Shown here: positions 11,366 through 63,112 of the stretch, in pieces
How the letters are laid out: the number at the start of each line of letters is the position of its first letter
How positions within the stretch are numbered: position 1 is the stretch's first letter
NCBI GenBank assembly: GCA_003999685.1
Contig: CP021227.1
Span: 1,550,001 to 1,614,000 of the forward strand
DNA: 64,000 bases
Reading direction: 5' to 3'
Source of the DNA: Taiwanofungus camphoratus
Taxonomy: Eukaryota > Basidiomycota > Agaricomycetes > Polyporales > Taiwanofungaceae
Notes under the pieces: model-generated
What the model saw: the letters and a program-made list of their open reading frames with translations, nothing else
Told to the model about the DNA's origin: nothing
Database searches by the model: none
Position numbers and translations under genes: made by a program

Positions 11366-12660
11366 ACCTCAGGGTGGCACTGCCTGTTAGTGATGATACC
11401 TCATGGCTCTCCTTAAGCATTCCACCAGATCGATGCGCGAGGCTGGTGTCATCATCGGAGGATAAGCTGGACGTTCCTTCGCTCGGGCTGAGAACCTGGG
11501 CCCACACATTACAGCTGGATCAGAGCAGCCGTTGAATGAGGCTTACGGGCGACACGCAAAGGGACTTGTCACTAGCCATGGGGTTGAAAACGACGGTGCC
11601 CTCTCGCAGCGGTATATCGGTGCTTGGGCTGGAGGGTTACCAGCAGAAGCCAGGAGGCAGTACTTATCTGCCTGCAGGCATCCCATTCTGCATCTGCCAG
11701 GAGGTCATGGCGTCCTCTGCAGCCCACGCACGACGGTCAACTGGACGCGATAGACGCTCAATGGCATGCCGGAAGAAGACAGATGGAGGCAGAGATCAGG
11801 CTGCCTTCTGGTACTGTCCTTCGATCTCGCCCATCGATACACGAGCCGCGGCGTGGATTGCGATAACGCACCCACAGCACACCACAGGGACCCACCGCGT
11901 TACACAACGACACCGGCATCTGCAAAGTGACGGACGACAGAGATACCGTGTAAAAGAACCAACGGCCTGCAATGACTTTGATGATGATGTAGATATTTGA
12001 CGCGTGAGTTAGCGGCGTCGGTGAATTGCCATAATAACAATGTATCGATGAAACGGAAATCGTACCAGGAGGTTTATAACCACCTGCGCGTACTCCGCAG
12101 GAGGGCGGGAACGATTCTCTCAAGTTTAACGCGAAAACGGAACTGGTGACCGGTTTGTTATTGACAGAGAGGACGATAAATGTCGCAGTACATGCTCCTG
12201 CGTACAGAGAGAGCAGACCACACGAGACAAACAGTCATCGGACAAGTGGAGTGAACACACCTTCGGTTCCTGTCTAATCGCTAATTGATAACAAAAAAGA
12301 GCGGTACCCTGGCAGCCCGCCCGAAGGTCACAGGCACCAATAGGAAAAGGAAGAACGACCGAGTCTCAGAGGTGCCCTGAACTCGCCGTGATGGACGTCG
12401 CGCGTATCCCTGACGAGGCGCAACAGGGTGACTCGTAAGGGCAGAGGTGGGTTACGGCACCACTGAGACTCTTGCGTGGTTTCTCTCATATGAAATCTAG
12501 CGCTTCAAGGAGACCGACACGAATGTCTGTGAAGAGCACCGGCAGATGCGGCTGCACCGTGCATGCGGAGCAGGCGCGAGACGCTGTCCTGTCTCCTCCG
12601 CTATGTCACACACGTGGACGGAGATACGCTGCTCGCCTGATGGGGCATGCACAGTGTACA
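11366..12660. other. intergenic, no gene recognised
   Basis: About 1.3 kb upstream of F-box paralogue 2. Several overlapping frames of up to 155 codons exist on the plus strand, but none has a domain, a splice-linked extension or protein-like composition. Confidence 0.55.
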
Positions 12661-12669
12661 ACAGTGGTG

Positions 12670-12968
12670 GTAGGGTCAGTACCCGACCCCCTGACCCTTC
12701 GACCCCGTCAAATGGGTCTGACCGGGTCTGACCGCACCTCAATCACGGTCGAAGGTCAATGCGTGACCGCTGACAACACTTATACCATACGACCTTGGTT
12801 TCGGGACAAGTCTGGGTCAACAAGGCCGGACGGCCGACTCGAAGCACAGCAGCGGTGGCATCTCAGGGCACGGGAAGCTGGTGGTCACGCATTGGCCGTT
12901 GACCGGGGTCAGGCCTGTTGGGGTCAGACGGGTCAATGAGGTCTGAGTCAGACCCGGCCCAGCAGACC
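12670..12968. repeat. degenerate inverted-repeat element rich in GGGTCTGACC
   Basis: Two arms face each other. The left arm, about 12670-12768, contains GGGTCTGACCGGGTCTGACC and then CACGGTCGAAGGTCAATGCG. The right arm, about 12883-12968, carries the reverse complement of a related sequence. The best-matching blocks are 12744-12768 and 12883-12906, which share CAATGCGTGACC with a few mismatches on either side. The arms enclose about 115 bp. This looks like an old miniature inverted-repeat element or a foldback. Ends and any target duplication could not be fixed by eye. Confidence 0.45.
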
Positions 12969-15589
12969 ACTGGCCTACGGCACACTCGGCTCCTGCGCAT
13001 GCCCATCCCCCGCTAGGGAGCATCCGCAGGCGATGAGCGATGAACGGAGACCGAGGCACGCGCGTGGCCCGAAGCCTGGCGGCCGGCCTGTCGCGAGCGC
13101 ACGGGGATAGACGACGGACGACGGACGGCGAAGCGACCAGGAGCCGCGCGGATGGGCCTGCACGAGCGCTAGATGGCGCAGGCGGGGGGGAGGGGTACGG
13201 GGGTGTGCCGCCGCGACGCATGGAGGAGCGGCCCTCGAGTGTGGTTCCGCAGCCGTGCATGTTCAACAGCGGTCGGGGCCGCGCCGCGGGTGACGCGCGC
13301 GCACAAGCTGGGACGGGCCGCAGAGGGCCGTTGCATGCGCAAGGAGACACGGGCTAGTCGGCTGGTCGGGGCAGGGGCTGCGGCTTTGGATGGGGCCGAG
13401 TCGACAAGCGCAGGCGGGCGGGAGCCGGGACTAGGGTGGGCGGGCGTGAAGGATACGGCCGGGCGTCTCGAGGCTCGCTCCAGTGCCGCAGACGGAGACG
13501 GCCAGGCGGGGGCGAGTTACGGCAGGGGCGCGCGGTATCGCAGCAGCCCGAGGACCGGGCCACCGCACGCCACCTTTCAGCGGAAAAATACACTACGCAC
13601 TTGTGCGTGGCCAGCCGCCAGCGGCTCCGCGCGTGGGCGCGCGGGGGAGGGGGGGCCTCTGGGTCGCCGAAACGCGCATCGCGGGGTCGGGGTCGGTGCA
13701 GCGTGCTGTGCGCTGCGCGCGCTCAGAGGAAGATCACAGCAGTGTTGGAAATTCCAGTTTCTATGCTCGGTACATACAGATCACATGACCTAGCGTGGTA
13801 CTTTGCCTGTTCGTACGTACCTGGTTCGGTACGTATTCGCTGGCGGAGACCAGGTCAAACACAGCCTATTCTTCCTGTGTTGTGTGGTCCCAGCTAGACT
13901 CCAACGAGCGGCTTCGTGCTGCCGTGCTGCCTGTGTACGGGTGGGACGCGCCGGAAAGAACGAGCGGCTGGGGTTCTGTGGCAGTCAATTGCAGCTGCGC
14001 GGGAGACGGAGAACGGGCGACGGGCGACAAAGAGTTCGCCAGGCCTTACAGCGCACTTGGTTTGCATGCTAGATGGCCAATAAGAATCAGAAAGCACACA
14101 ACAGCGACCGTGAAAGGTGCACGCGCCGTGGGGCGCGCAGACATGCTGGGACGCGCTGCAGGGACGACCAAAGGCACGAGGGACGACGGCGGGGCCCATT
14201 TGATGGTTCGTCAATGTCTGTGTCGCGATCAAGGGGCGATGGAGGCTGCCCACACGCTGCGGCGTACGCCCGAACAGGTCGGAGGAGAGGCCGCGTGCGT
14301 TGACCCCTGCCCGGCCCCTCGCACCCGAGGCCGTGGGCAATGGGCACCCCAGTGCTGGAGGAACAGGGGAGGGCGAGGGCTAATGGCGGCTGTGCGCGCA
14401 AGAGGAGAGACGGGCTGGTTGTAGGCGGGATGCGGCGAGTAAAGGTGGCTGCAATGGGAGCGTATATCACAGATGGGCTTGCCAGTGTGTGTGTGTGTGC
14501 GTGTGTGCGCGCGCGCCAGACAGCGCGGGCTAGTGATGCGCAGTGGACCGATGGCACCGGAGGTCAAGGTGCGTGAACTCTGTGCAGTGTGCACATGCTT
14601 ATGTTCTCCAATGTATACCCGGCATTGTAGTGTTGTAAAAATCCTGAAGCATGATCCTCTGAAAGTACAGAGAATTGAGGTGCTTCAACCTTCAGAGGCC
14701 TGCGTCCGGGGTCAAGCACATCACTGGCGCGAGCAGCCGTCCGTGCGCGGACACGGAAATGGCAGGAGTAGTACCTACTGCGGTGACAATGGTGGGATAT
14801 ACACGAGCCCGTGATAAGAGTGCGCGATCACGCGATCTGGCGCAGAGGGACTGTCTGGGACAGTTCCGGACAGTTCGGAACTGACTCTCTGTGAGGCGGT
14901 CTGCAGCTTTGAAAACGAGGGACCGCCCGTCTTGTGTAATCGGATAAGCTGGGCTTACAGCGATCAGCGCCAGCTTAGTTATGGCTGAGAAACGGAGGAC
15001 TAATGTGGGCGTAACCATGGTGCGGGCCCGACAGCACGGCCTGGCAGGGCGCAGGAGCAACCAAGTTCACGTTTGCTGCTGATAGGAGGATGTGCGGTCC
15101 TGGATGCTGATGACAGTAGGGCGGTGGCGCCGAGAATTAGCCGACTGCGGAGAGGCGCGGCAAACGTGCGAGGGAAGGAGGGGCGGAGGGGGTCGAGACG
15201 GGGAGAGGAGATGGAGGGCGATGGCCCAAGGGGGCAGGCGAGGAGAGGGAGATTGGTGGACGATGGCCAAAGAGGGCAGGTCCCGCTGATCGAAGGTCGC
15301 ACACGCGGCGAGGGGCTCTCAATCCCGGCGAATCCGTGGCGATGGCGATGGCGATGGCGATGGCCAGAGACTGGAACGTTCGCGCAGGACGACTCGTCTG
15401 TGCTCTTTCCTGCCCACACTCTTCCTTGGCAGGCGTGTTCTCGATGACGTTGGACTCTGCGCACGTGACGCTGCAGGGGAGGCGTGCCTAATCTGGGCGA
15501 GGACGACAGTGATGCGGGACGCGATAGCCAGCCTGCCAGCCTAGACCCCCGCCGCCGCCTCCTTCTCCTCCTTCTCCTCCTCCTCACCC
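12969..15589. other. GC-rich stretch without a supported gene
   Basis: Strongly GC-rich DNA, so long frames occur by chance on both strands because stop codons are rare. Overlapping frames of 100-200 codons have arginine-, glycine- and alanine-rich composition and no recognisable motif. A (GT)n/(GC)n microsatellite lies at about 14485-14517 and a GGCGAT hexamer repeat at about 15340-15362. The last part is the upstream region of the TPS2-like gene. Confidence 0.55.
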
Positions 15590-15595
15590 CCAGCC

Positions 15596-15602
15596 TATAT
15601 AG
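15596..15602 (+). promoter_or_regulatory. TATA-box-like element of the TPS2-like gene
   Basis: TATATAG lies 94 bp upstream of the ATG at 15690, a normal distance for a fungal TATA element, and is followed by a pyrimidine-rich tract typical of fungal transcription-start regions. Confidence 0.5.
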
Positions 15603-15627
15603 CCTCTGCACGCATCTCGTCTTGTCT

Positions 15628-15675
15628 ATCCTCCCTCCCCTCCCCTCCCCTCCCCTCCCCCTCCCTCTCCCCTTG
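15628..15675 (+). promoter_or_regulatory. pyrimidine tract with repeated CCCCT (STRE-like) cores
   Basis: A run of CCCCT units sits just upstream of the start codon. CCCCT/AGGGG is the core of the yeast stress-response element, and trehalose genes are classic STRE targets there. Here the repeats may equally be a CT-rich 5' leader, so a regulatory role is inference. Confidence 0.35.
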
Positions 15676-15689
15676 ACCACACACCCGCC

Positions 15690-18600
15690 ATGGACAGCTT
15701 CGCCGAGCCGCACCGCGCACCCGAGCCCGTCTCCCTCGCCGCCGTCCGCGAGCAGGTCCGCAAGCTCGAGGCGGACCACCGCGCCAATGGCATCCCCCTC
15801 TCCGGCCGCATCATCCATGTCTGCCACTACCTCCCCGTCGCACCCGCCCTCACACGCCTCCCATCTACCCCAGCCCTCCCCAGCCCCCCTGCAACGCCCC
15901 CCGCCATGCCCGCCGACATCCCCGCCAGCCCCACAGAAGCCGCCTCGCCCGCGCCGCACCAGGGCGAGGGCGAGGGCGCGGACGTCCAGCCGACGCAGAG
16001 CGACGACGGGCGCTCGCCCCCCGTCGCCGTCGAGCAGCCGCAGCCGCAGCCCCCATCCCAGCCGCACTCCAAGTGGTCCCTCGCCGTGCGCTACGGCCAC
16101 TCCGCCATGATCAGCGGCATCGCCTCCCTCGCCGCGACGCACGAGCAGCTCGTCGTCGGCTGGACCGGCGACATCGCCGTCGGCCCCCCGCCCGCCGCCG
16201 CGTCCACGCCGCAGCCCGCCTCCCCCCCCGCCGCGGACGCCGCCGCGGGCAAAATCCCTGCGAGCGCGGTGCGCGGGGACGACCGCCGCGGCCTTGAGAC
16301 GCTCCTCGCCGAGTACCGCTCCCGCGAGGAGATTGACGCCGGCGGGAAGATCGCGTACGTCCCCGTGTGGCTCGACGACACGGTCGCGCACGGACACTAC
16401 GAGGGGTACTGCAAGCAGAGTGAGTGTCGCGTCTCTCTGTCTGGCATGCGTGGCTTGTTTCTCTGTTTCTTCTTTCTTTCTCTGTTTCTGTCTGCTTTGT
16501 GTCCCTGTCTGTCTGTGTCTGTCCCCTTTCCTGTGTCTGTATCTCCTCCTGGTGCCCCGTACGGGATCCTGCCGTACTCCGCGTACGTGCACGGGGCACC
16601 AGGGCGTGTGCGGGAGAAATATGGGCTCTACACTCTTCTCCAAACTCTGTCAACCTTCCCGGCTGTATATACTTCCTTTTCCGCACTTCTCGCCCACCGG
16701 ACGGTCCCACTGTATCCATCGTATACCACACCCGCGTCCCGTATCCGCACAGGGCCCCGTCCCCATCTGTCCTTCTATAACTTCCAATCGCGTCTTTCCT
16801 CGCGCTAATCGCATCTTTCCCTGCCCTGATCGCGCCCTTCGCTTACGTCCCGCTTCGTATCTCCCCGCACACGCGTCCGTATCGCGCGCATCTCCGTCTT
16901 CCCCACACAAGCGCTCCTGCTATAGGGTGCGAGCCTCGAGCCTCGAGCTAAGGGCAAGGGCAAGGGCTCCGGCGCCGGATCGCGCTCCGCCATCGAGGGG
17001 CGGTCGGTGGGTCCGGGCAGCACGCAGCACGCAGCACGCAGCCCGCAGCCCGCATTGCGGAACCTGTAAGCTATATACATAGCCTGTGTGCGCCTGCGGA
17101 CCTGGATCTTCCCAGCGGCCTGCCCGGATCCGCATCGGGCACTCGACGCGATCGGTGCGGTGCGGTGCGGTCGCGGCGGGCGTCTCGCCGGGCCGTCCTG
17201 TTCCCCGTCCTCGTTCTCTGCGCGTGTGTGCGTTCCCATTGCCTGCGCGACTGGTTCTGTACCTGCGCGCGCGCGTCTGTCCTCTTGTCCGAGCGCGTGT
17301 GTCGTGTGCGCTGGGACAGGGCGAGGGACGGTTGGGCGGCGTGCGGGGCCTGCTTACCCCGCCACGCACGCAGGCGCATCGTAACCCGCTCTCTCTCCTC
17401 TCCCGTATTCAACAGCACCCACTGACCTCCGTTTCCCATTTCCCCTTTCCCATCCCCCAGCGCTCTGGCCGCTCTTCCACTACCTCCTCTGGCAGGACGT
17501 CGCGACGGAGTACGCGTCCGCGGACACGCACTGGCCCGCGTACGCGGCGGCGAACGCGGCGTTCGCCGCGCGCGTTGCGGCGGTCGCGCGCCCGGGCGAC
17601 CTCGTGTGGGTGCACGACTACCACCTGCTGCTCGTCCCCGCGCTCCTGCGCCAGGCGCTGCCCGACGCGGCCGTCGGCCTGTTTGTGCACACGCCGTTCC
17701 CGAGCTCGGAGATCTTCAGGTGGGTCGGCGTTTTCGACGGGCGTGCGCGCTTGTCTCTGCTCCGCATATCGCTGACCGGTGACCCGCCCAGGTGCCTCCC
17801 GCGGCGCAAGGAGATCCTCGAGGGGATGCTCGGCGCGAACCTCGTCTGCTTCCAGGTGCGTGTTTTCCGCGTTCACCACATTGCAGCTGCTGACTCTCCC
17901 CGAGACGTACTCCTACTCGCGGCACTTCACCTCGTCCTGCGTGCGCGTGTGCGGGCACGAGATCACCGCGACGGGCGGGATCGACGTGCAGGGGCACGTC
18001 ACCGCGATCGCGTATTGCCCCGTCGGCGTCGACGCGGAGCGCGTCGCCAAGGACACGTGAGTACTCTGGTTCTGCGTGCGTTCGTTACTCGAGGCGCGCT
18101 GACCTCCTGTTTTCGCCGACGCGTGCAGCCTCCGGCCTGGGATCCAGCCCAAGCTCGAGGCGCTGCGCGCGCTGTACGAGGGTAAGAAGATCATCGTCGG
18201 CCGTGACAAGCTGGACGTCGTCAAGGGCGTCGTGCAGAAGGTGCGTTGTCGCTGCCCTTGGTCCGCCTTGCCAAGCCGATGTCCTCATGCGCTCTTCTCG
18301 CGGTCAGCTGCGCGCGTTCGAGAAGCTCCTGCAGGACTACCCGCAGTGGATCGGCAACGTCGTGCTCATCCAGGTGACCTCGCCCGCGCTGTCCGACTCG
18401 CCGAAGCTCGAGCGCCAGGTGTCCGAGCTCGTCGCACACATCAACGGCGAGTACGGCTCGCTGGACTTCATCCCCGTGCATCACTAGTGCGTGCCCCCCT
18501 TCTCGCGGCGCTGGCCACGCACTGACAGGCACGCGGTGCCGCAGCCACCAGACGATCAAGAAGGACGAGTTCTACGCGCTCCTGTCCGTCGCCGACCTCG

Positions 18601-20310
18601 GCGTGATCACGCCCCTGCGCGACGGGATGAACACGACGTCGATGGAGTTCGTCATCGCGCAGGACCGCACGAAGCACAGCCCGCTCGTCCTCTCCGAGTT
18701 CATGGGCATCTCAAACAACATGTCCGACGCGCTCCAGGTGAACCCGTGGAACCTCGGCGTAAGGACCTGGCATCCCCCCTGCTGCTGCTGACCGCGCGCG
18801 TGCTGACCAGTCTGCGTTGCGCCCTGCAGGAGGTCGCCGCGGCGATGCACCGCGGGCTGCTCATGCCCGACGAGGAGAAGCGCGCGCGGCACCAGACGCT
18901 GTACCAGACCGTGTCGACGCACACGTCGCACACGTGGGCCGCGGTGCTCGCCAAGACCCTCCTCGCGCAGATCGGGCGCTCGAACCTCGCGCGCCAGACA
19001 CCGTACATCCCGAGGGACCGCCTCGAGGACTGCTACCGCGCGGCGAAGAAGCGGCTGTTCCTCCTGGACTATGACGTACGCCGCTGTGTCTTGCTGCTCT
19101 CTCGGGCTGGCTGTATCTGACGTGTGGTGCCTCTCTTCAGGGCACGCTCGCGCCGATTGTGAAGGTCCCGAGCGCGGCCGTCCCGTCGCCCGACACCCTC
19201 GAGGCGCTCGCGCGCCTCACGGCGGACCCGAAGAACGTCGTGTTCATCATCTCGGGCCGGGATGGCGAGTTCCTCGAGCAGCACCTCGGGCACATCAAGA
19301 ATCTGGGCATGTCCGCCGAGCACGGCGGCTTCGTGCGCGAGCCCGGGCAGGCGGAGTGGTCCAACTTCACCGAGAACCTGGACATGGGCTGGATGAGCGA
19401 GGTGCTCGAGATATTCAAGTACTACACCGAGGTGCGTGCTCTCTCTCTCTCTCTCCCCCCCCCACCACGCGTGTGCACGTTCCGGTGCGGAGGCCGATGT
19501 CATGTGTGGACAGCGCACCACGGGGAGCCAGATCGAGGTCAAGAAGAGCTCGATAACGTGGCATTACCGCTCGAGCGACCCAGAATGGGGGTGAGTCCGG
19601 TCGCGGCGCTCTCGTGCGTGTGGCGCTGACGGTCCGGCCAACAGGCTGTTCCAGTGCCGCCAGTGCCAAGACCTGCTCGAGAACAACTTGGCGCGCAAGC
19701 GGCCCATCGAGGGTGAGCGCGTTTCTTCTTCTGGTGTGGTTTGTTGTGCGGTTTGGGCTCACGGACGGTATCAGTCCTTGTGGGCAAGAAGAACCTCGAG
19801 GTCCGCCCGATGGCCGTCAACAAGGCACGCATTTCTAGATTTGATGGTTGATTTACATGTAACTGAGTGAAGGGGACTCCAGGGCGAGATCGTCAAGCGC
19901 ATACTGTACTACAACCCTGATGCCGAATTCGTCTTCTGCGCCGGAGATGACAAGGCGAGTTGCCCATCATTCCGTTTTCTCCAGAGCACAGGAATTGACA
20001 GGCATCACGGAATCGCTAGACTGACGAGGACATGTTCCGTGCACTCCTTCTGTTCCCCGGCGATGCGAAGAAGGCACGACTGGACCCGCCCCTTTCCGTC
20101 ACGCTCATCGCGAAGGAGCCAGCGAGCAATTTTGAGCCGGTAGACCTCGCCATCAGTCACGACGCTGTCTTCACCACCGCCGTCGGCCACAGCAGTAAGC
20201 GCACGCTTGCTGCGTGGCACGTCACCGCCCCCGAGGAGGTCGTTGACCACATGCTTTACTTGGCCCGCCCACCTGCCGACGACAAAGAGGCCAAAAGCAG
20301 TAGTCTCTGA
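15690..20310 (+). CDS. TPS2: trehalose-6-phosphate phosphatase/synthase-like (Tps2 type)
   Basis: Two-domain trehalose enzyme of the cytosolic Tps complex. The N-terminal GT20 domain shows GRIIHVCHYLPV, WSLAVRYGHSAMISGI, LVVGWTGDI, YVPVWLDDTVAHGHYEGYC, then TLWPLFHYLLW, VWVHDYHLLLVP, LFVHTPFPSSEIFR, KLDVVKG, DGMNTTSMEFVIAQ and LSEFMGISNNMS. The C-terminal HAD phosphatase has motif I RLFLLDYDGTLAPIV and the late motif CAGDDKTDEDMFR, so the phosphatase step (trehalose-6-phosphate to trehalose) looks active. A proline/alanine-rich insertion of about 110 residues splits the N-terminal synthase part, as often happens in fungal Tps2. There are many short introns, plus one long one (16420-17460) lying exactly inside the conserved YCKQ-TLWPLF junction. 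The start at 15690 is the first ATG after the TATA and CT tract. It ends DDKEAKSSSL. Stress induction is plausible from the promoter. Confidence 0.93.
16420..17460 (+). other. unusually long intron (1,041 nt) of the TPS2-like gene
   Basis: Donor GTGAGT at 16420 and acceptor CCCCCAG ending at 17460 rejoin the GT20 motif without gap or insertion. Every other intron I traced here is about 50-110 nt. The intron holds CTGT-rich simple sequence (16430-16545), a hairpin with perfect 10-bp arms GGTGCCCCGT/ACGGGGCACC (16551-16560 and 16591-16600) and a GCACGCA/GCCCGCA short tandem repeat (about 17018-17052). Long frames inside it are GC-driven and show no domain. Confidence 0.75.
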
Positions 20311-23424: not shown

Positions 23425-24728
23425 TCAGATTGGCTCAATGGCAATCTCGAGATCGTGCTGCATGAATGGAGATCCTCGCCCCAAAATCTCCTCAGAAGGC
23501 ATCTTAGGGTCGATACCTGAACCCTGCAGAACGATTTCATCCATTTGCCTGTCGTATGCATTAAAAATCACTCTTCTGCACACCAGCATCGCAGTCAACA
23601 TACCTTTCTAGCCTCTCAAATTCATCCACATCTTCCGGTAGCAAACCAACCATCAGATTATTTGACAATTGCAGTTTGACGATCTCCGAGGACCCTTCGG
23701 TATATGCTATCGTTGATGAGATCCACATGTCGTGCCCAAGCGGAGCGCCCAAGTTTCCTATGAAACTGGTCGCGAAGCGTGGCATCGTCAACCGCGATAG
23801 ATCCATGGACTCGGTAACCTGTTGTTCATCCTGGGTCAAGAAGACTTCTCTGAGGCAAATATTTTGACCTACTTAGCAATCTGGTCTGCGTCTAGTGCGA
23901 TGTTCTCCCCGCAGCCGTACAACGGTGGTTCCCAAATAGCATACGATGCTGGAAGGGAAATACTGTATTGATACTGGGTAGGCAGTTATCATTTCTGCGC
24001 TTCAGATAGACGATATAACATACGATATTTGACACAGGAACTACGAGAGCTACAATCAGCACAGGAAGGGCCGGACGCCAGCTTCTGTTCCAGGTTCCGT
24101 ATATACGGAGTGCGGAAAACACTTTGAGCAAGAGCGTTATAAGACATGACACAACTGAACGACTGTCGGACAGACCTGCAGCTACTATGTTTGCAATAAC
24201 AGTGAAGATCTGCTCTAATATGATCGGAGCGCGACAGCTACGATGAGCGTGAGAATGCAACCTCATCAGGAGAAGCTACGGATTGTACCTCTGAAAAATG
24301 ATTGCTAAGTGAGTCCTGACTCCACGTAGGAAAATATAGCATCCTTACCTGATCAGTCTGATTTGGACACGAGGAGGAGTCCACGACCAGGAGGGCCTTG
24401 TCGATCAAGGTGTCATAGCGGTTCATGGTAAACAGCAGAGTCACCGCAGAAAACTTCCGCTTCCAAACGAATTCGACCTCCCCAGGGAACGTGAGGAGGT
24501 GGTCGTAGAAGAGGAGCCTTATGCAGTAAATTATTGAATCATGACTTGTGCATGTCACGAAAGCTCCTTTCGACTCACCAAATGCGGCAACTTCACATAA
24601 ATTACCCGTGACACTGTTGAGTACGGAAATGACATCACTTTGGGCCCGGGAATAGCGGTAACAAAGACCTACTATAGACGATACGCCTCGATGAGCTCCT
24701 GAACTCAGTCCGGGTCTGTTGTAGACAT
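23425..24728 (-). pseudogene. DUF6533-type membrane protein, decayed paralogue
   Basis: Recognisable parts in order: MSTTDPD start at 24728; ELIEAYRLY; LLFYDHLLTFPGEVEFVWKR and FSAVTLLFTMNRY (the DUF6533 signature); CRAPIILEQIFTVI; VFSALRIYGTWNRSWRP; EPPLYGCG; MPRFATSFIGNLGAPLGHD; and a C-terminal tail ending LEIAIEPI at 23425. Compared with the paralogue at 45.0-46.9 kb it lacks the helix with LFLTWAKTYW and the following segment, roughly 150 residues. An in-frame TGA also sits at 24707-24705, seven codons after the first ATG. Fungal DUF6533 proteins are multi-pass membrane proteins of unknown role, common in Agaricomycetes. It shares with its paralogue a putative 2-nt exon, AG, at 24291-24290. 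A downstream start could still give a shortened product. Confidence 0.65.
24290..24291 (-). other. putative 2-nt micro-exon (AG) in the DUF6533 gene
   Basis: The exon ending ...QTDQ (CAG, phase 0) is followed by a 58-nt GT-AG intron, the dinucleotide AG, then a 51-nt GT-AG intron and an exon that starts one base before a codon (C TGT CGC). The AG is exactly what restores the frame (Q-S-C). The same arrangement is present in the paralogue. Confidence 0.55.
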
Positions 24729-32179: not shown

Positions 32180-34297
32180 ATGACTGACACACCCATAGGA
32201 CCGCTCCTCTCCACCGTTTTCCAAGTCAGTATACTTGTCCCCGAACCGCAGCTGGGGTTGATCCTGACATGATGCTCGGATTTGGGCAATCTAACATTCC
32301 TAGTCGATCCTTGAAGTCTTCTTGTTATGTTTGTCAGGATATGTACTCGCCACGAAGGGCATCCTTGACCGGAAGACCCAGAAGGTACTCTTGCGGATCG
32401 CTTACTTATGTCTTCCGATTACATCACTGATCCGCCTCTCGACAGCAACTCAATCGCCTCAATGTTTCGTTGTTCACGCCGTCTCTGCTGTTCTCGAAGG
32501 TAGCATTCTTCCTTTCACCAGGTATGTCGGCTCTCGATAGTGCGATTACATGTTCGTGAACACCTATGACCAGCGAAACTCCGGGAACTATGGATCATAC
32601 CAATATTCTTCGTCATCACAACTGGTGTTTCTATGCTTGTTGCATACTTGCTAGGGTGGATGTTGAGGCTCAAGAAGTCACAAAGGTGTGTACATTCTCT
32701 TCCCAAGATGGTGAAAGGCTGGAGGATTTGGATGGGAGTATGGGGAAAGGGGGTCATCTCACTGCCTCCGTCGGGCATTGTGTCTATCATTAGGTCCCTT
32801 GTCTTCTGAACGATCAGTCTATCACTGCTGATGCTACTGTCGGAAGTATCGAGCACTATTGACCAATGCTGCAATTGACAGGAGTTTCGCAGTTGCTGCG
32901 TCGATGTTCATGAATTCCAATTCACTGCCCATCGCATTAATGCAATCCCTCGTCGTCACTGTACCCGGGCTCAAATGGGGTGCGGACGACAATCAGAATG
33001 CCATGGTGGGCAGAGCATTGACCTATCTTGTTGTGTACTCGACACTTGGAATGATTGTGAGTGGCTTTGCTCGAATCTACGCTTAGAAGGATGATGGACA
33101 GAGGTGCTCATCTAGGTCAGATGGAGCTATGGCGTCCGATTACTATCTAATGCGGATCCGGAAGCTAATGCTGAGCAGCCTCAGCCTGCTAGTCCTCTAA
33201 TCGAATCCGACGAGACTGCCTTCCCTAATTCCGCAGAAGAACAGCGAATTTTGCATCATAGGCCGTCCACGCTCTCGGATCACACAGACGATTCAAAAAC
33301 GATAGCACACGAGCATGACCACGCCGCCGTATCCGTGGATGAGGTCGACCGTGCGGACCCCAAGATCTTCTCATTTCTGAGATCGCGGTCGCGGACGCCG
33401 CCGCCAGGCCCACCGCACGCCTCCACGTCCGCGACGCCATCAGAGTACTACGTCGACGGTGAAGATGATGACCTCGACGAGTTCCCTGGTCGGCGCGAGA
33501 TCCCGGAGCCAACGTCTACCTTATGGCAGTCCCGCATCCGCAGGACGCGCCACCGGGTTGCCAAGTGGTTGCACACCTTGAACGAGTTTATGACTGTCCC
33601 GTTATGGGCCGCGCTTGCCTCTCTAGTCGTCGCATGCATCCGTCCGTTGCAGCACGCGCTCGACGTACACCTCAAGCCCGTCAAAGGCGCTCTCAATAGC
33701 GCCGGCAACTGTTCGATCCCGCTGACGCTCGTCGTCCTCGGCGCCTACTTCTATACCCCGCCCGATCTCAGCGAAGCGCGGAGCCGTCAAGCATTGCCGT
33801 CACACAAGTCGGGCTCGCGCAGCCCGAGCTGCGCCTCGCGCGTGACGCTGTTCGATAACGTAAAGGAGATGTTCAGGATGACGCGGAGGCCCGGCCGTTC
33901 GACTAGAAATCCCACCAGCGAAAAGCGACCTGGGGAAACGAAGACGGTATTTGTCGCAGTGCTATCGAGGATGTTCATCACGCCTCTGTTACTACTGCCC
34001 ATGATGGCGCTTGCGACCAAATTCGACCTGCAGGCAGTATTTGAGGAGTGAGCGCTTTAGGAAGGGAGACCCATGCGATTCGCTAACACGATGTTTTGTA
34101 GCCCTGTGTTTGTGGTTGCCAACGTACTTTTGATCGCATCTCCGCCAGCTTTAACTCTGGCGCAGATCACACAAGCAGCATCGGGCGATGCCTTTGAACG
34201 ACTCATCAGTCGCACGATTTTCTGGTCCTACTGTGTTATCACCCCTCCATCGACCATCATTTTCGTGGTTATAGGCTTGTTACTGGCCAAGCTTTGA
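32180..34297 (+). CDS. auxin efflux carrier (AEC/PIN-like) family membrane transporter
   Basis: Starts MTDTPIGPLL at 32180; an intron after STVFQ leads into ILEVFLLCLSGYVLATKGIL, the first AEC helix. It continues with QLNRLNVSLFTPSLLFSKVA (the conserved N-x-x-L-F-x-P-x-L-x-F motif), LWIIPIFFVITTGVSM and SFAVAASMFMNSNSLPIALM (the N-x-x-x-L-P crossover). A hydrophilic loop of about 200 residues, rich in acidic and Ser residues, separates two five-helix halves. The C-terminal half has FMTVPLWAALASLVVACI, IPLTLVVLGAYFY, VAVLSRMFITPLLLLPMMA, ANVLLIASPPALTLAQI and a final helix ending VVIGLLLAKL. Fungal members sit mostly in the ER and are related to plant PILS proteins; the substrate is unknown. 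There are several short introns and the family topology is complete. Confidence 0.87.
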
Positions 34298-42266: not shown

Positions 42267-44155
42267 GAACATCACAGCGAAGGGTACTTTGAAACCTGTA
42301 GCATTGACATTGTCACATTCCCTGACAATGTCATATTCTCCAACATTGTTTTGCTGTGCTGCTAAAAATATACAAGTATACTGCAGTGTCATGATTTCGT
42401 GGTATCTGCCTGTTCGATGTCCAGGACCTGATGCACCTGGAATCCCTTGTGCCGAGACTAGAGCAGCGACTCGCACGCTTGACCGTATCAGCGTGCTTCC
42501 AGCATGTAGCGCACCTTCTCCATTGGCGAGCTGCGGAGTTCGTCTTACTCGATGGTAGTTTTGGGTGGCCGAAACACCCTTAAAACCGCAGGCCAACTTG
42601 GTGGATCCCGGGACTGCAAGGATGCCCTCTTACTTGCCCTATTACATTCTCCTTTTGCTTTCTCTGTACTGTGTCTCATCAGTGCGTGCGGAAACTCTAG
42701 AAGGTTGGTCCGTTGTTCGTTTTTCCTACGTCTTGATATCGAGTGACGCTCCAAATGGCAGTACGTAGCAGGGTGTTGATATTGGGTCATGTTCATGAAG
42801 AGGTCACTTCGCACCATCCTCAGCCCAGTCGTGAGCCTCTGTTTTCGGCATGCTTATATCTTTGATTAGATTCTGACAAGTCTTATTAGCTCGCGAGACG
42901 TAAGGGTCTACTTATCCATTCCCGAAGGATTCTCTGCAATAAGTCCTTACCCCAGTTCTTCAGCGTTGCGAGGTGTCTGTCTCTTCGATTTATTTCCTCA
43001 TGAGTGATTGATGCGAAAACTTTATGGCTCGTACTTCCTCCGGAGATGACCGTTAGATATCTTGAAATATTTAGAACAAGTCCATGAATATCAAATCACT
43101 ACAGATGATTCTGTACCCGAAGGTGTCTATTTCGTGCATGATCTCATTTCGGAAGTGGTCGTTGATTGCGAGATGATGCGTAGGAACAACGTTACAGCTT
43201 TATTCTGCGGGTAAAAGCGAATAGCGTCAACTTAAATACACATGAACATCGGCAAATGTAACAACGGTCAATTGAGTCACATACTTGCTCGTGCTGAGAA
43301 GCCATGAGCTTTAGGTCTGCATGCAATGCATTATGGTTAATAGTCGAAGGCTTTCTCAACGAGAGCTGCGTTATGGATGTTCTGCTGGCCAGGCTCACAT
43401 GTCCAAGAATGTTTCAAGGCGTGAAGTGGACTTCTATCGCAAATGGGCATGTTACTGGTGACTGATGGTTGTCTCTGAAGAAGACGGTGATGCTATGGCA
43501 TATGTGCCATCTCATCGGGCGGTGTTTGACAACACCTCAAAAGGTCCTCAGGCTATTTGATGTACGTACTTGCAGTGATATGCATTGTATACCCTCAGCC
43601 ATGCTTCCCTTCATACCTCATTTTGATCTCTCACAGGTTTCTAACATAGGACAGGTGTAATCGCTGTCTTGCGTAAGAATCGTGCCTGTTGGGCATTTGA
43701 GACCCTTCTATTGTTGGCATGTGAGTTCCCGAGTGATCTTCCTTGTCAGAAAGGTGTCTTTCTGTCAGATTTTCGTTACTATCCTCTCCACTTAGCTTAT
43801 CTTCAAGGAGAATCTTACAACTGACGGTTATTGTGCACCTCGTGATCACATTTACTGGAATGTGTAGGGACGAGACGACCGCATTCTCTGTGATTATTCT
43901 CGATTATATAATGGGTCGATTGTGTGCACGCCCGGATAGCGATTGAGATTGTGCTGCCAAGGTCTAAGATGCTAGTGCTCTTTAACAGAAGTGTTTCTAC
44001 ACGTATAGTGACTTTTAATCGTGATAAGAAGGCTTTTTTTTTTCAGAATGGTCAATATCGAACAGTCCATGCATGCATCTGGAAATGTCTAACTTGTGAA
44101 GGTTTCGCATGAAACTGTCTACTTCGCGGTCAAGTGCGTCCCGTCACGCTCTGTA
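42267..44155. other. gene-poor stretch, no gene recognised
   Basis: About 1.9 kb without a supported gene. AT-richer than the flanking coding regions, short frames only, and a poly-T run at about 44035-44043. Confidence 0.5.
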
Positions 44156-44376
44156 AAAAAGGATAGTCAACCGTAGTCCCCAAATTGCGCCAGGTGACTA
44201 TTATGGTGACTAAATCAGGGAGCATAGTCACACATTAGTCGCTTGAATCGACTACACCTTGACTGATGGGTGACTGTTTTCTCCAAATTTGGACAGCGGC
44301 ATTCAAGAAAAATGACTAGTTAGTCCATTGGCGCAATTTGGGGACTAGGTTTGTGACTAGGTTGACTATCCTTTTT
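44156..44376. mobile_element. TA-flanked miniature inverted-repeat element (Tc1/mariner-like MITE)
   Basis: 221 bp with terminal inverted repeats AAAAAGGATAGTCAACC at both ends. The homology continues inward, with an inserted GTGACTAGG-type unit on the right, through TAGTCCCCAAATTGCGCCA. A TA dinucleotide lies immediately outside each end (44154-44155 and 44377-44378), the target duplication of Tc1/mariner/pogo elements. The interior repeats GTGACTA/TAGTCAC units. No coding capacity. Confidence 0.78.
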
Positions 44377-45016
44377 TATAGAGGATCACAGCTGAGAGAC
44401 AAAGCTAGGCTGCTGCAATTGTATAAAGGGGGTAATTTGAACAACTAAAATGCATCAGTAGCGCTAGGCTAAAGTGGATCACAGTTGAGCCGTGTGTACT
44501 CATTGGGTGCCAGTCTTCTGAGGTAAACTAAGCCTGCAAAGACATAGAACAATCAGGGTTTTCATTATTCAAAGAGTGCTTTGCTCCATGCACAAAGACA
44601 CTTCCACAAGCAGCTTGCTGACAGCGCAATGTAAGCTGCAGTTTGACTTCCGTAATAGACCATGACCATTTGGATTGTGGCGACCACTGCCTGAAGGAGT
44701 GATCTTAAGGCCTAGCTATACTACCTACTGACAAAGTTTGACAAGTACATAAAACCTAGTAAGATTCGGGAGATGTACCAGGGACACGACTTTAATTGAT
44801 GATCAACCCTTATTAATCAACATAATCATAGGATAGATCATTTGGGAATGGTAGTGCCAAATATGGATGAGCCTCTAGCTACCAGTTGCGTAACGCCAGC
44901 CCTTCACTGAGCTTCGAAGGTCCACTCCTCTTATACAAATGGTACATTAAACCGTATTGATAGCTTGCCACGCCGATATCATTGGAAGCTAAGACATGCA
45001 GAACACCTTGTGGGCA
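44377..45016. other. intergenic, no gene recognised
   Basis: About 640 bp downstream of the second DUF6533 gene. Nothing supported. Confidence 0.5.
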
Positions 45017-46930
45017 TCAAGTGTGGCAATCATTATTTATGTATAACCTGTCCATCTATAAAACAAAGGAAGAAGCCTTCTTCATTGAGTAAGACGAGTA
45101 AGCTAGAGCATAGTAATACTACTTACAGCTGTAGCTGTGATCGTGTGCAATTCAATATCAGTATTTTCCGGCATTAGGCCAGCCAGAAGAGGATTGTTCG
45201 CTACTTCTACCGCTGCCCAGTCCTCGGCTTCACGCGCGAATACCATTTGTTCGGACATCGTCGTCATGTTTCGTTTGTGATATAACGGTGCGCCTAAGTT
45301 GCCAACAACGTTTGATACGAACCGCACATCCGATATGCGACCAGTCTGCGTTGTTACTGAGGCACAGTCCGAGTTGGTGAGATAGACGCCTCGTAAGTCG
45401 AGCATAAAGCGTGAGGTAAAGATCACAAGAAAACTGTAACATAAATGGTAAGACAACAAAGTTGAGCTTTTTTAATTCAATACAACTGACACTTCATCAA
45501 AGTAGGTCCATACATCCCAAAGGATGAAGTCCTGAAAAGACATCAGGATTTGCTTCAAGAACAATCCATTTCCATACCGATCCCAGCTACGGGGTCCAAC
45601 GTTAATGAGTATGTATTTACCACCCGTGAACATACAGGATTCTTATAGTACTTACCCCATAACCTATGATGTCCAGAATCTCAATCAAGAGAAAGAGCCT
45701 AATTCAAGTGAGTGAGCATATGATCAGGAGTAGGACACATCCTCAACTCACATGAAATAAAGAGTACCTATTGATAGGCAAGGTTAACTTTGCTATAACC
45801 ATAGAACCTGGAGAATACTTACCATCACGAAGCAGTAGAGTAATTAGAGGAGTGTTCCATCCTAATCTAGATGACTCTCTGCTGATCCAGTATGTTTTGG
45901 CCCATGTCAGGAAGAGAACGATGGTATTTGAGGCAATCGCGGCTGCATTAGCCGCAATTCGTACTAGCATACTCATTATCGCAATCACTGTCAGGCATCA
46001 TAGAGACACCTACAACTAGTCCAACAACTCTCTTGAGTAAAGGCTGGTATATGTTTGCGTATGAACATACTTATCTATGGTTTCACTTGAAGCAATATAG
46101 AGAGCCCCGCATCCGTACAAGGGTGGTCCAAATGCTATTGGAATATATTCGACTTGAAGGTACTGGAAGCATTCCCATGAATAGTAAGTGTTAATTCAGA
46201 TTTGACTCACAATGCTGACAATCGGCGGGATGAGGCACAAGGGAGCCAACAGCAAAAATGGCCTCCAGTCACTTCCCCAGATGCCTCTTATGCGCAGAAC
46301 AATGAAGGCTGTGGCTCATCAATAAGCTCTTTGCGACATGAACAACTTATCTTCAAGAACCTACCTCCATTGACAAGCTTGCCTAGACTCGTCAAGCTAT
46401 CATCCAATCGTAAGACAGGTACACAGCTACGCAGCATTACATGGTGAATATTAGTTAACTTCCTGATGCCAACAAGAACATACCTCTACGTGGATCACGT
46501 CAGACCACGGAAGATACATAAGAGCAGAGTATGGGTAATACCTGATCTAGCGTCGCTCGTAACAAGACGCTTGTGACCAATGTTATCCTTTCCGCAAGTG
46601 CAGCATAACGGACAATAAGGAATATGATTGTTGCTCCGCTGAACCTGCGGCTCCAGATGCGTTGCACTTCCGTAGTGAAAGTGATACAAAAATCGAAGAA
46701 TAAGAGCGCTGCAGGTAAAGTAGAGAACGAGGGTCCACGATAAACGCTCAATCATCGACCTAGTAATCGGTACGCACCAGCAGATGCCATGATACAGTAA
46801 TTTTCCACTACGCTGGAGACTTGATATTAGCAATTGAGTCGAGGACATACCAGCGACCAACGGACACTTACAGTCTGCTATATGCCGCCAATATCTGCTG
46901 CTCAACGTTTGGATCGTTATCTGGTACCAT
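45017..46930 (-). CDS. DUF6533-type multi-pass membrane protein
   Basis: Start at ATG 46930: MVPDNDPNVEQQILAAYSRL, then after short introns VENYCIMASA, ALLFFDFCITFTTEVQRIW and RRFSGATIIFLIVRYAAL (the DUF6533 signature). Next come CVPVLRLDDSL, FIVLRIRGIWGSDWRPF, LLLAPLCLIPPIVSIV and FGPPLYGCGALYIASSE. NTIVLFLTWAKTYWISRESS and NTPLITLLLRDG cover the later helices. The C-terminal part is VVGNLGAPLYHK and NNPLLAGLMPENTDIEL, with the end near 45103 or, after a further intron, 45017. The splice between PPLYGCG and the LFLTWAK exon could not be phased by eye, so integrity there is unproven. It matches the decayed copy at 23.4-24.7 kb in intron positions. Function of the family unknown; six to seven helices. 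Confidence 0.72.
46450..46451 (-). other. putative 2-nt micro-exon (AG), same place as in the paralogue
   Basis: After ...ATLDQ (CAG, phase 0) comes a 56-nt intron (GTATTA...CACGTAG with CTGAC branch), the dinucleotide AG, then a 57-nt intron (GTATGT...GCGTAG with CTAAT branch) and an exon starting C TGT GTA. AG plus C gives Ser, yielding Q-S-C exactly as in the other copy. Confidence 0.6.
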
Positions 46931-47675: not shown

Positions 47676-49267
47676 ATGAATCCGCAGGTCTTCTCGCTGC
47701 CAGGATACAGCCAAGCAGTCCATACTAGGCGAATGTCTGCAGCAAAGGTCCCGTTGTCGGCCAGGAGCCACATCGAGAATTTGGATGCAGGCTTGACATC
47801 CGTACAAGGTATACTCTCGTATGCGTGCAGTTGATAAACACAATTGCTAATGTGGATTCAGGTGCTCGAGAGGTCATAGCAGCAATCAAGTCGCGGCGGC
47901 TGGTAACGAAGCTTATTCTTGGGCACAATGAGCTAGGAGATGATGGTTGCCAGACGTTGTTTGGTTTTCTGAGCACTGAACAAGGGAGAAGATATCACAT
48001 ATCCGAAATCAGCCTCAACTCGAACAGAATTGGGGACCGCGGGCTACAAGCTATTAGCGAATACTTGAGGGACAACTCAACATTGAGGGAGTTGTTCCTG
48101 CAGAATGTATTTCTTCTATGCTACCGTCCGTTGCACAGTAGCTGATTACTATCGTAGAACGCCTTCACAGGCGACCCCGAAGTCATCGCTGCTCTCACGG
48201 AAGCGCTAAATTCTTCTTGTCTCGAGACGCTCTCCCTGACGACCAACAACAGACTTTCCGATGCTTTTATAGCGCAGATTTTCCCGGCTCTCGATGCTCC
48301 TTATCTCCGAGAGCTACAGATCTCCGTGCTTGGCCTGACCTACCTGTCGGCTCCATATATCATCGAATATATCACGTCCTCGCGCTGCCGTCTGAATGCA
48401 CTGAAGGCGAATGGGAATCGTCTCGGCCTGCGTGGAGCCCGCGCCATTATCCGCGCCATGCACCGGCGTAACTTCACGCTGACCAAGCTGGAGATGTATG
48501 CGAACGGGCTTGCAGACGCCGATGCGTCGAGCGAGACGACGGCGAGCGATGAGGACGGTACTAGACGTGTGGGCGCTGCCTTATGGCAGGAGAGCGAGAA
48601 GGAGTTGAAGCGGGTGTTACTACGGAATGAGCAGCTGAAGCGCGCCACGGAGCGGGAAGCACTCGCGCTACTTCGGTACGCGCGGACAGTGCTGCTGAGG
48701 CCACGAACCCAGGCGCATGGGTCGTCTTCTATGGCACTGGTACCGTGCTCTATCGAGAGTCTATTTTCTTCCATCGGGAACCCGCTGCTACTGCCTCCTC
48801 CGGGGCCTTCAGCGCCCACATTTCCGTTCAGCCACCTGCCCACCGAGCTCCAGCTGCACATCCTGTCGTTCCTTGCACCTACACTCTCATCTGCGCAGCG
48901 CATTCGCATCTACACGTATGCCGCGTCGCCAGCGACGTTACCGCAGCTCCTGCCTTCACTTTCGCGGCTGAACTGTATACCAAATCTGTCAAGGACGGAC
49001 TTTGGAAGTGCTAGCGGTATGCCCGGTTCGGAAATGGGTGTAGGGATGGTCCTTGGTATGACAATGCGCAAGAGGGGCATTTTCAGATCTGGGTCGGCGT
49101 CTGGCCGTACCGATGGGAAGTGCATGGGCGCGGGATACGGTGTGATCTGTAAGAGGGAAGAAGAACGGTCGAGATGGCTTACGCTTATGAGATGTAATGC
49201 CTTCGAATTGGAGGAAGAAGATTCTTGGAATGAGGACGACGCAAGGGTTTTGCTAGTATCTCCTTAA
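47676..49267 (+). CDS. leucine-rich-repeat protein with C-terminal F-box-like motif
   Basis: Starts MNPQVFSLPGYSQAVHTRRM at 47676; exons join after ..LTSVQ at about 47806/47862 and again near 48108/48157. An RNase-inhibitor-type LRR region follows: VTKLILGHNELGDDGCQTL, ISEISLNSNRIGDRGLQAI, LRELFLQNNAFTGDPEVIAA, LETLSLTTNNRLSD, LNALKANGNRLGLRGARAI and FTLTKLEMYANGL. A charged helix (ESEKELKRVLLRNEQLKRA) leads to an F-box-like motif, FSHLPTELQLHILSFLAP, about 100 residues before the end, and then a Gly/Met-rich tail and acidic C-terminus (ELEEEDSWNEDDARVLLVSP). Ubiquitin-ligase adaptor or RNI-type scaffold; in canonical F-box/LRR proteins the F-box comes first. Reasonably intact. Confidence 0.82.
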
Positions 49268-61037: not shown

Positions 61038-63112
61038 ATGAGTGCCACTGCGACTGCTACTCAGCAGAGCGACCAGAAAAGCATATTGGGCGCGTCCGTA
61101 CCTCCTTTTACTGCCCACGCCATCTCAGTATCGCTCCCGACATGGAGGGACACCGTTGGATACGAGGAGGGTGAGAAGCGTGTGATGGATGCAATGGTCA
61201 CCGGTTATCCGCGATTCTTCATTCATCTAAGCATCCAGAAAGTGAGTTCTGTCAAGTCTTACAAAGGCCCCTATACTAAGCCAAGGCTCTAGCTAGCGCG
61301 TATTTGTGAGCAGAAGTTTGGGGTGAACGGCGAGCGTTGTCTCCTCTGTCCCACGCGCAAGATCGCAGAACAGTGCCGAGCTTTCATGATCGACCGCTCG
61401 ACCAAGGCTGGATCTCCAGTTCCAGTTCACCTTGTCCAATTCCTCATATGCCCAGAGGATGAGCCCGACGCACTAGCCTCTGGCATAGAGCTGCACATCG
61501 TTCTCTTCCCAGGCGACTCTTTCCCATTCGCTAAACAATTCTGGCAACACACCGGCTTGTGCATATCGAGTCGGCGCGCCGAGCGTTGTCTGTCTATGCT
61601 GCCCGCCGAGTCCCCTGCATCCCCTCCGCCCACTTTCGCGCGCCCGCGGCCCAGAAAACCAAATCGGCACTACTCAGCCAAGAGCTACGGAAGGTCACCG
61701 CCTACGTCGCCCGTTCCGCCGTATTATAACGGCAACGGCGACGTTGGGCTCGCTGAGGACGCGTTGAGCGCGGATCAGGCCGTCTACGTCGAAGAACGAT
61801 ACGGCCGTAACCTGCCTCTCGAGTCCGCAGCCTCTGCGAAGCGGGCTCTGCGCCGTCGGATAGCAGGTGTCCTCATCCGAGACTCTCCGAATGATTGGTC
61901 TGCTGCAGGTGGGCAGGATGCCGAGCTGGGACCCAGCACGAGAGGTGTCGAGGATGTATCTGAGGAAGACGTATTTCTGTATTCCACTGGCATGGCCGCC
62001 ATATGGAGTGCTCACCAGTTGGCGCTGGGCACACGACCTGCTGCAAAGAGCATATGTTTTGGGTACGATCATTTTCGTCTATTGACTGAAATGTGCTCAT
62101 TTCATATCTTTCATTTTTTGCAGCTTCCCGTATACCGATACCCTTAAAATCCTGGAAAAATGGGGACCAGGGTGCCATTTCCTTGGACACGGCTTGGACG
62201 AGAGCATTGACGAGCTTGAGACGATACTTAAACGAGAATCTACTAATTTCACCAGCCCGCCAGCACTTGCGCTATTCACAGAATTCCCCTCGAACCCCCT
62301 CATGCGGTCCGCGGATCTTCCTCGTCTGCGTGCACTGGCTGATAAATACGACTTTTTGGTTGTGGTGGACGAAACCCTTGGCAACTTCGTCAACGTAGAA
62401 GTGCTGCCATATGCCGACATTGTTGTGAGCAGTCTCAGCAAGGTCTTCAGCGGCGATGCGAACGTAATGGGAGGAAGGTAACTGTCTAATTACTGTCTCG
62501 TTGGTAGCTTGCTCACCGTTGTCTAGCCTTGTTCTCAATCCCAAGGGTCGACATTATGCAGCGCTGAAGGCACACATGTCTCAAACATACGAAGACTCCT
62601 ACTTCGATGAAGATGCGATATACATGGAGCGGAACTCTCGCGACTTCAAGCGCCGAATTGAGATCATCGATGCCAATACCCTGGCCGTCTGCACCTTCCT
62701 TCGCGCACACTCTCTCGCCGGCCCGTCTCCCCCTGCGCACGCTGTCGTCAAAGAGGTGTTCTACCCTGCATGGACCACAACTTCACACTACGACCGCTGT
62801 CGCGTGCGCAAGGACGGTGTGCCAACAGGCGGCTTTGGCGGACTGTTCTCACTCACGTTCACCTCCACTGAAGCTTCGCGGGCGTTCTTCGATTCGTTGC
62901 CCTGTTACAAGGGCCCCAGCTTGGGGACGAATTTCACACTCGCGTGCCCGTACGCGATACTGGCGCATTATGCGGAGCTAGACTGGGCAGCAGAATACGG
63001 CGTAGAAGAGAACCTGGTCAGGGTCAGCGTGGGCATGGATGACAGGGTGGAGCTGCTGCGCGGGTTCGAAAAGGCGCTGCGGGCAGCTGAGGCGGCGGTA
63101 GAGGGCAAGTGA
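61038..63112 (+). CDS. STR2: cystathionine gamma-synthase (PLP enzyme)
   Basis: Start [20 protein letters not shown] at 61038, with introns after SIQK (61242-61291), after SICFG and after MGG. The fungal N-terminal extension contains [20 protein letters not shown] and [19 protein letters not shown]. The PLP-fold core shows [76 protein letters not shown] (Asp that pairs with the PLP nitrogen) and [18 protein letters not shown] with the Schiff-base lysine. The C-terminal part is [36 protein letters not shown] and [20 protein letters not shown]. It joins an activated homoserine ester with cysteine to form cystathionine in the transsulfuration route to methionine. Length and motifs match fungal Str2; an insertion rich in Pro/Ser follows residue 160. 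Intact. Confidence 0.92.

Follow-up and report, generated by a model that had tools for sequence, protein, structure and literature searches.

Exons shorter than three nucleotides are known from both fungi and plants. A 1-nt exon in Fusarium CYP621A was deduced by phase reasoning in 2009 and later confirmed by 18 RNA reads, and the same source, in the excerpt consulted, mentions exons of 2–5 bp in Arabidopsis, Drosophila, and humans (PMC12940212). In plants, 1-nt exons have been proven in APC11 of Arabidopsis and others, and also in VPS55 (PMC4674806, PMC8831610, excerpts); for APC11, intron definition with stepwise removal was proposed by its authors, Guo and Liu. The P450 genes of the white-rot basidiomycete Phanerochaete chrysosporium have introns of 45–55 bp and frequent microexons, the shortest exon given in the excerpt being 6 bp (PMC1184071). 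Stwintrons, as described in part of PMC5639578, are pairs of fungal introns which lie at one place and are removed consecutively.

The locus studied here lies in a window of 64,000 nt, the whole stretch of Taiwanofungus camphoratus DNA that was analysed, where two DUF6533 membrane-protein genes, copy A and copy B, each probably contain a 2-nt exon between two ordinary introns. The proposed arrangement resembles CYP621A in being a fungal, phase-matching ultra-short exon with an AG-exon-GT core beside a conserved motif, in an intervening sequence of double length (139 nt there). It differs in having 2 nt where the ascomycete P450 gene has 1 nt, and CYP621A is backed by 20 orthologues in addition to its RNA reads, whereas the present exon is predicted from the DNA of two paralogues. 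APC11 likewise has an ultra-short exon between introns, and its proposed mechanism is the one put forward here, but APC11 and VPS55 are plant genes with 1-nt exons that were tested with constructs or RT-PCR. The P. chrysosporium genes are comparable in fungal group and intron size, though with a longer shortest exon; stwintrons are nested with nothing kept between them, whereas here two bases must stay. An exon of 2 nt is an extreme but not unprecedented splicing case, and the initial annotation was right to call such exons extremely rare, although even shorter ones, of 1 nt, have proof in plants and in a fungus. No paper on a 2-nt fungal exon was present among the literature matches listed, which is not proof of absence.

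Gene copies and their exon layout

Copy A was located on the minus strand from approximately 46.9 to 45.1 kb of the window, and copy B on the minus strand from approximately 24.7 to 23.6 kb. Profile matching of single exons assigned the large exon of each copy to DUF6533 (PF20151) with the scores listed below, against a gathering cut-off of 24.1 bits, and the joined copy A protein reached 49.7 bits. The two proteins were 37% identical over 132 residues, with an alignment running through D-Q-S-C. The lengths of exons 5 and 6 were identical in the two copies, and a P-P-L-Y-G-C-G motif was present in both, downstream of a Cys kept in both. The AG stood at the same place in both of the paralogues.

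Copy A
46542..46708, minus: exon 3 (DUF6533 core), ends ..L-D-Q (..GAT CAG) on a whole codon; PF20151 41.8 bits
46486..46541, minus: intron 3, 56 nt, CAG/GTATTA ... CACGTAG; CTGAC 14 nt before the acceptor; donor score 1.3
46484..46485, minus: AG, the proposed 2-nt exon; would form the Ser codon AGC together with the first base (C) of exon 5
46427..46483, minus: intron 4, 57 nt, GAG/GTATGT ... GCGTAG; CTAAT 24 nt upstream of the acceptor; donor strong, 8.9
46365..46426, minus: exon 5, 62 nt, starts C/TGT (Cys)
46211..46308, minus: exon 6, 98 nt, F-x-x-LRIxGxW..WRP
45988..46070, minus: intron 7, 83 nt; canonical outer sites, phase offset of 2 nt between exons 7 and 8

Copy B
24349..24518, minus: counterpart of exon 3, last residues ..T-D-Q with the final codon complete; PF20151 46.8 bits
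24291..24348, minus: intron 3, 58 nt, CAG/GTAAGG ... TTTCAG; CTCAC 19 nt before the acceptor; donor score 6.2
24289..24290, minus: proposed 2-nt exon AG between introns 3 and 4
24238..24288, minus: intron 4, 51 nt, GAG/GTACAA ... TCGTAG; CTCAC 12 nt before the acceptor; weak donor, 1.3
24176..24237, minus: equivalent of exon 5, 62 nt, starts C/TGT
24024..24121, minus: equivalent of exon 6, 98 nt, length as in copy A

The initial annotation had recognized this structure in both genes, and its intron pairs of 56+57 and 58+51 nt with GT and AG ends were recovered; however, the AG of copy A, which it placed at 46450–46451, was 34 nt off (position 46451 falls on an A within CTAAT), and that of copy B, placed at 24290–24291, was off by 1. 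All four introns flanking the AG started with GT, ended with AG, and carried a CTNAY motif 12–28 nt upstream of the acceptor; the CTGAC and CTAAT motifs previously reported for copy A were present, and the copy B introns also carried CTCAC. For reference, 13 introns were modelled by eye, comprising seven from copy A, two from copy B, three from a PLP-enzyme gene at 61–63 kb, and one from a transporter-like gene at 33–34 kb; intron 7 of copy A (83 nt) was kept out of this set because it is out of phase and its borders are doubtful. These introns were 48–69 nt long (median 54 nt), and 10 of the 13 contained CTNAY in the same comparison. Three of these four flanking introns had their proposed acceptor at the first AG downstream of the branch-like A (at 14, 24, and 12 nt); in intron 3 of copy B the acceptor, at 19 nt, came after one other AG, at 5 nt. 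Each copy had one weak donor scoring 1.3, GTATTA in the first intron of A and GTACAA in the second intron of B; the lowest of the 13 reference donors scored 4.1, and 32% of all minus-strand GTs reach at least 1.3.

The description of one copy as functional-looking is uncertain for copy A, where the exon 7 donor, placed by eye to match copy B in its distance from the Cys (an alternative donor of intron 7 lies at 46086), is out of phase with exon 8. A search for in-frame solutions at the exon 7/8 junction, allowing introns down to 38 nt, returned 19, none convincing. One of them has a 2-nt exon, TT, flanked by a 43-nt and a 38-nt intron; it is probably spurious and indicates that 2-nt fixes can arise by accident. 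The offset may come from unusual splicing, from a lesion in copy A, or from an error in its assembly, and the gene may not be intact. Copy B contained a stop in its putative first exon, and tblastn in the window found no match to exons 8–10 of copy A near copy B, where a tail (G-N-L-G-A-P-L region, 23830–23603, minus) followed soon after exon 7.

A tblastn search of the window with the A and B proteins revealed no third DUF6533 copy; a short, isolated match, PPLYNC at 44.4 kb, had an E value of 1.5. Contig scans and a plasmid tblastn found no homologue in viral, bacterial/archaeal, or plasmid collections, where fungal genes are not expected, so that these searches are uninformative on conservation in fungi.

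Just downstream of copy A, an element of approximately 235 bp (44149–44383) with a MITE-like look contained nested inverted repeats of 24 nt (96%) and 33 nt (85%). On the plus strand, an LRR_6 match (47729–48142, 33.3 bits) adjoined an F-box-like match below the cut-off (48158–49264, 16.7 bits), and 47729–49264 is perhaps one F-box/LRR gene. The two other genes that served as sources of reference introns, also on the plus strand, were a Cys/Met-metabolism PLP enzyme gene (61293–63112, 36.6 bits) and a Mem_trans transporter-like gene (33116–34101, 24.4 bits, just under the cut-off of 25.7). In the region 12000–20000 the G+C content rose to 63–68%, and numerous long ORFs overlapped one another on the two strands, including one of 549 aa on the minus strand; no Pfam match was found in the four ORFs scanned there.

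Reading frame and the proposed AG exon

For exon 3, the Pfam match itself, being in frame, sets the reading frame. The frames of the following exons were determined by comparing copies A and B, which gave BLOSUM62 sums of +15 for exon 5 in the frame needing two extra bases (−21 and −20 in the others) and +68 for exon 6 (against −39 and −8). In the chosen frames the third codon position was the least conserved, with an identity of 0.35 in exon 5 and 0.22 in exon 6 compared to 0.50–0.60 at the other positions. Since exon 3 ends on CAG and exon 5 begins one base before a codon, the gap must supply two bases (modulo 3). Direct joining of exon 3 to exon 5 resulted in a frameshift in both copies, and copy A with the entire gap removed ran into two stops after 8 codons. 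The AG would join the phases of the neighbouring exons and has GT/AG introns with plausible branch motifs on both sides, with one weak donor per copy; other in-frame splice solutions also exist. For copy A, the predicted mRNA junction would be ..GATCAG-AG-CTGTGTACC.., and with the AG both proteins read Q-S-C, as the initial annotation had proposed, and align through D-Q-S-C. The argument of that annotation from the frame holds for the chosen outer splice sites, and the 2-nt exon stands as the best single reading, but the necessity of the AG was overstated: within the limits searched, 33 others of the 34 solutions in copy A and 34 others of the 35 in copy B are also in frame and free of stops.

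The gaps between exons 3 and 5 were 115 nt in copy A and 111 nt in copy B, approximately twice the reference median, and the AG split them into 56, 57, 58, and 51 nt. The gap letters were shuffled 20,000 times per copy with the outer splice sites kept. A 2-nt exon between two introns of 45–75 nt arose by chance in 8.3% (A) and 6.6% (B) of the shuffles, and in 1.4% and 1.2%, respectively, when CTNAY was required in both introns. The exon was AG specifically in 0.035% and 0.115% of the shuffles, figures which are post hoc because the AG was known in advance. If the copies are treated as independent, which paralogues strictly are not, chance would give branch-bearing 2-nt solutions in A and B together in approximately 2 of 10,000 cases. 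There were 458 AG-NN-GT sites on both strands of the window, 56 of them with loose intron-like flanks. The bare motif is common and has no weight alone; the weight lies in the frame requirement and the occurrence in both copies.

The intron sequences of A and B aligned no better than shuffled ones, leaving the central AG-AG-GTA as the part retained. An origin by tandem duplication of one intron was considered and rejected, as introns 3 and 4 of the same copy were not significantly alike (98% of 1000 shuffles scored as high in A and 9% in B). The best reading of these sequences, and in our judgement a probable one though well short of certain, is that the AG is a 2-nt micro-exon common to both paralogues and older than their duplication, whose flanking introns are removed in sequence. 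The greater age, already suggested in the initial annotation, is a fair inference from the same layout in both copies.

Competing splice solutions

Splice solutions were enumerated from GT/GC donors up to 40 nt upstream of the CAG donor and from AG acceptors, with introns of at least 40 nt, in frame and free of stops. This yielded 34 solutions in copy A and 35 in copy B, the AG included, most of which use poor sites. By an ad hoc score the AG solution came first of the 34 in copy A. In copy B it came third of the 35, with a single intron of 73 nt and a solution containing an 11-nt exon ahead of it. When all 1190 pairs of solutions were scored at the protein level, the AG/AG pair was approximately 61st (117 against a best score of 133); among the 35 pairs with the full exon 3 and a GT first donor it was second (117 against 119). 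The protein comparison did not discriminate between pairs and does not decide.

The alternative that survives best, although we consider it unlikely, is a single longer intron with a later acceptor in both copies, which would lengthen the loop preceding the Cys by residues inserted after Q and ahead of S-C:

24276..24348, minus: copy B single intron, 73 nt, CCGTAG acceptor; adds 12 residues (LLLMRLHSHAHR) before S-C
46459..46541, minus: copy A single intron, 83 nt, GGAAG acceptor; adds 10 residues (LTNIHHVMLR)

Both versions are open and in frame, and their protein score of 115 is near that of the AG/AG pair. The CCGTAG acceptor of copy B, to which the initial annotation had drawn attention, proved a serious rival with good sites (donor 6.2, acceptor 5.8) that tops the ad hoc ranking in that copy. 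The acceptor required in copy A, however, is poor (−0.9), a score matched by 86% of all minus-strand AGs, and in both copies three earlier AGs follow the branch-like A. Both introns would be longer than any of the 13 used for reference. Conservation of the added stretch is also slight: upstream of exon 5, 13 of 33 bases are identical, and once the final six, with their shared CGTAG, are set aside, 8 of 27. For the latter count, in a small, ungapped sample, P was 0.026 when compared to 50% and 0.045 when compared to the identity of the pooled exons (47.6%). DUF6533 proteins tend to have a short loop at this position, which was likewise counted against the longer versions.

It is distinctly less probable that the frame offset is damage, in which a gene lineage on its way to extinction, with a single ancestral intron, suffered an indel of 2 nt that both copies inherited or that occurred in each, the AG-AG-GT being accidental. 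The stop in the putative first exon of copy B, the lack of a nearby match to exons 8–10 of copy A, and the phase offset at exon 7/8 of copy A would fit such decay, and 2-nt solutions without branch motifs appear by chance in 7–8% of the shuffles. Such damage must predate the duplication, yet the exon frames are conserved between the copies; moreover, the gaps are of double length, and the joint chance given above for branch-bearing solutions, if independent, is low.

Retention of intron 4 in copy A, which would add 19 residues (RYVLVGIRKLTNIHHVMLR) and leave the 2-nt exon as an annotation fix or a minor isoform, appears very improbable. The AG, the 57 nt, and the following C are open and in frame in copy A, but this intron has the best donor of the four together with its CTAAT motif, and the corresponding intron of copy B, if retained, would bring in a stop after four codons.

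Removal of the full 115 or 111 nt in two steps, by a nested stwintron or by recursive splicing via a zero-nucleotide exon, is hardly credible: the introns are adjacent with acceptor and donor almost fused, and stwintrons are abundant in some ascomycete fungi according to excerpts of PMC9024468 and PMC12403724, but excision of the whole gap leaves exon 5 out of frame, breaking the frame that a stwintron should keep intact, and recursive splicing retains nothing where the frame needs two bases. A [D1,2] stwintron starting one base earlier, which needs AG/T, was sought by eye and gave no workable arrangement; the options were GGAAG/T in A, leaving a 33-nt outer intron, and GGAG/T in B, with a 30-nt inner intron.

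Predicted splicing and relevance to the DUF6533 family

Under the 2-nt exon reading, the two GT-AG introns of 51–58 nt would each be recognized across itself (intron definition) and removed sequentially, because the first acceptor and the second donor lie within 6 bases (AG/AG/GT). With AG and GT only two bases apart, the factors on both could hardly be bound together, a view close to that of Guo and Liu on APC11. The order of removal would probably be set by the stronger donor, so that in copy A the second intron may leave first (GTATGT versus GTATTA) and in copy B the first intron (GTAAGG versus GTACAA). Use of the exon would be constitutive, and the AG would be completed by the C of the next exon to the Ser codon in D-Q-S-C.

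The Cys of D-Q-S-C probably lies at the top of the third membrane helix. A disulphide between helix 3 and loop 2 occurs in many receptors. Predictions for SNB1, another protein with DUF6533, give it seven membrane helices and an outside N-terminus (PMC10949477, excerpt), and on that basis the two Cys residues, in Q-S-C and in P-P-L-Y-G-C-G, may form such a bond. More speculatively, and with little probability in our estimate, the 2-nt exon could be an old selected feature of the whole DUF6533 lineage, in which the strong donor was swapped between the introns so that the order of removal flipped and the two bases were kept; the intron-4 retention of copy A, with its 19 additional residues in an outer loop, would then act as a switch between two receptor-like isoforms.

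Exons shorter than 3 nt test how the spliceosome handles a nearly overlapping acceptor and donor, and they are easily missed by automatic annotation; general read mappers, too, are prone to dropping them. If the present reading is true, a basidiomycete 2-nt exon would join the few known cases and show the upkeep of such an exon through gene duplication. Other gene models of the basidiomycete-specific DUF6533 family, whose member SNB1 is required for fruiting-body development according to the excerpt of PMC10949477, may then be wrong at the same junction.
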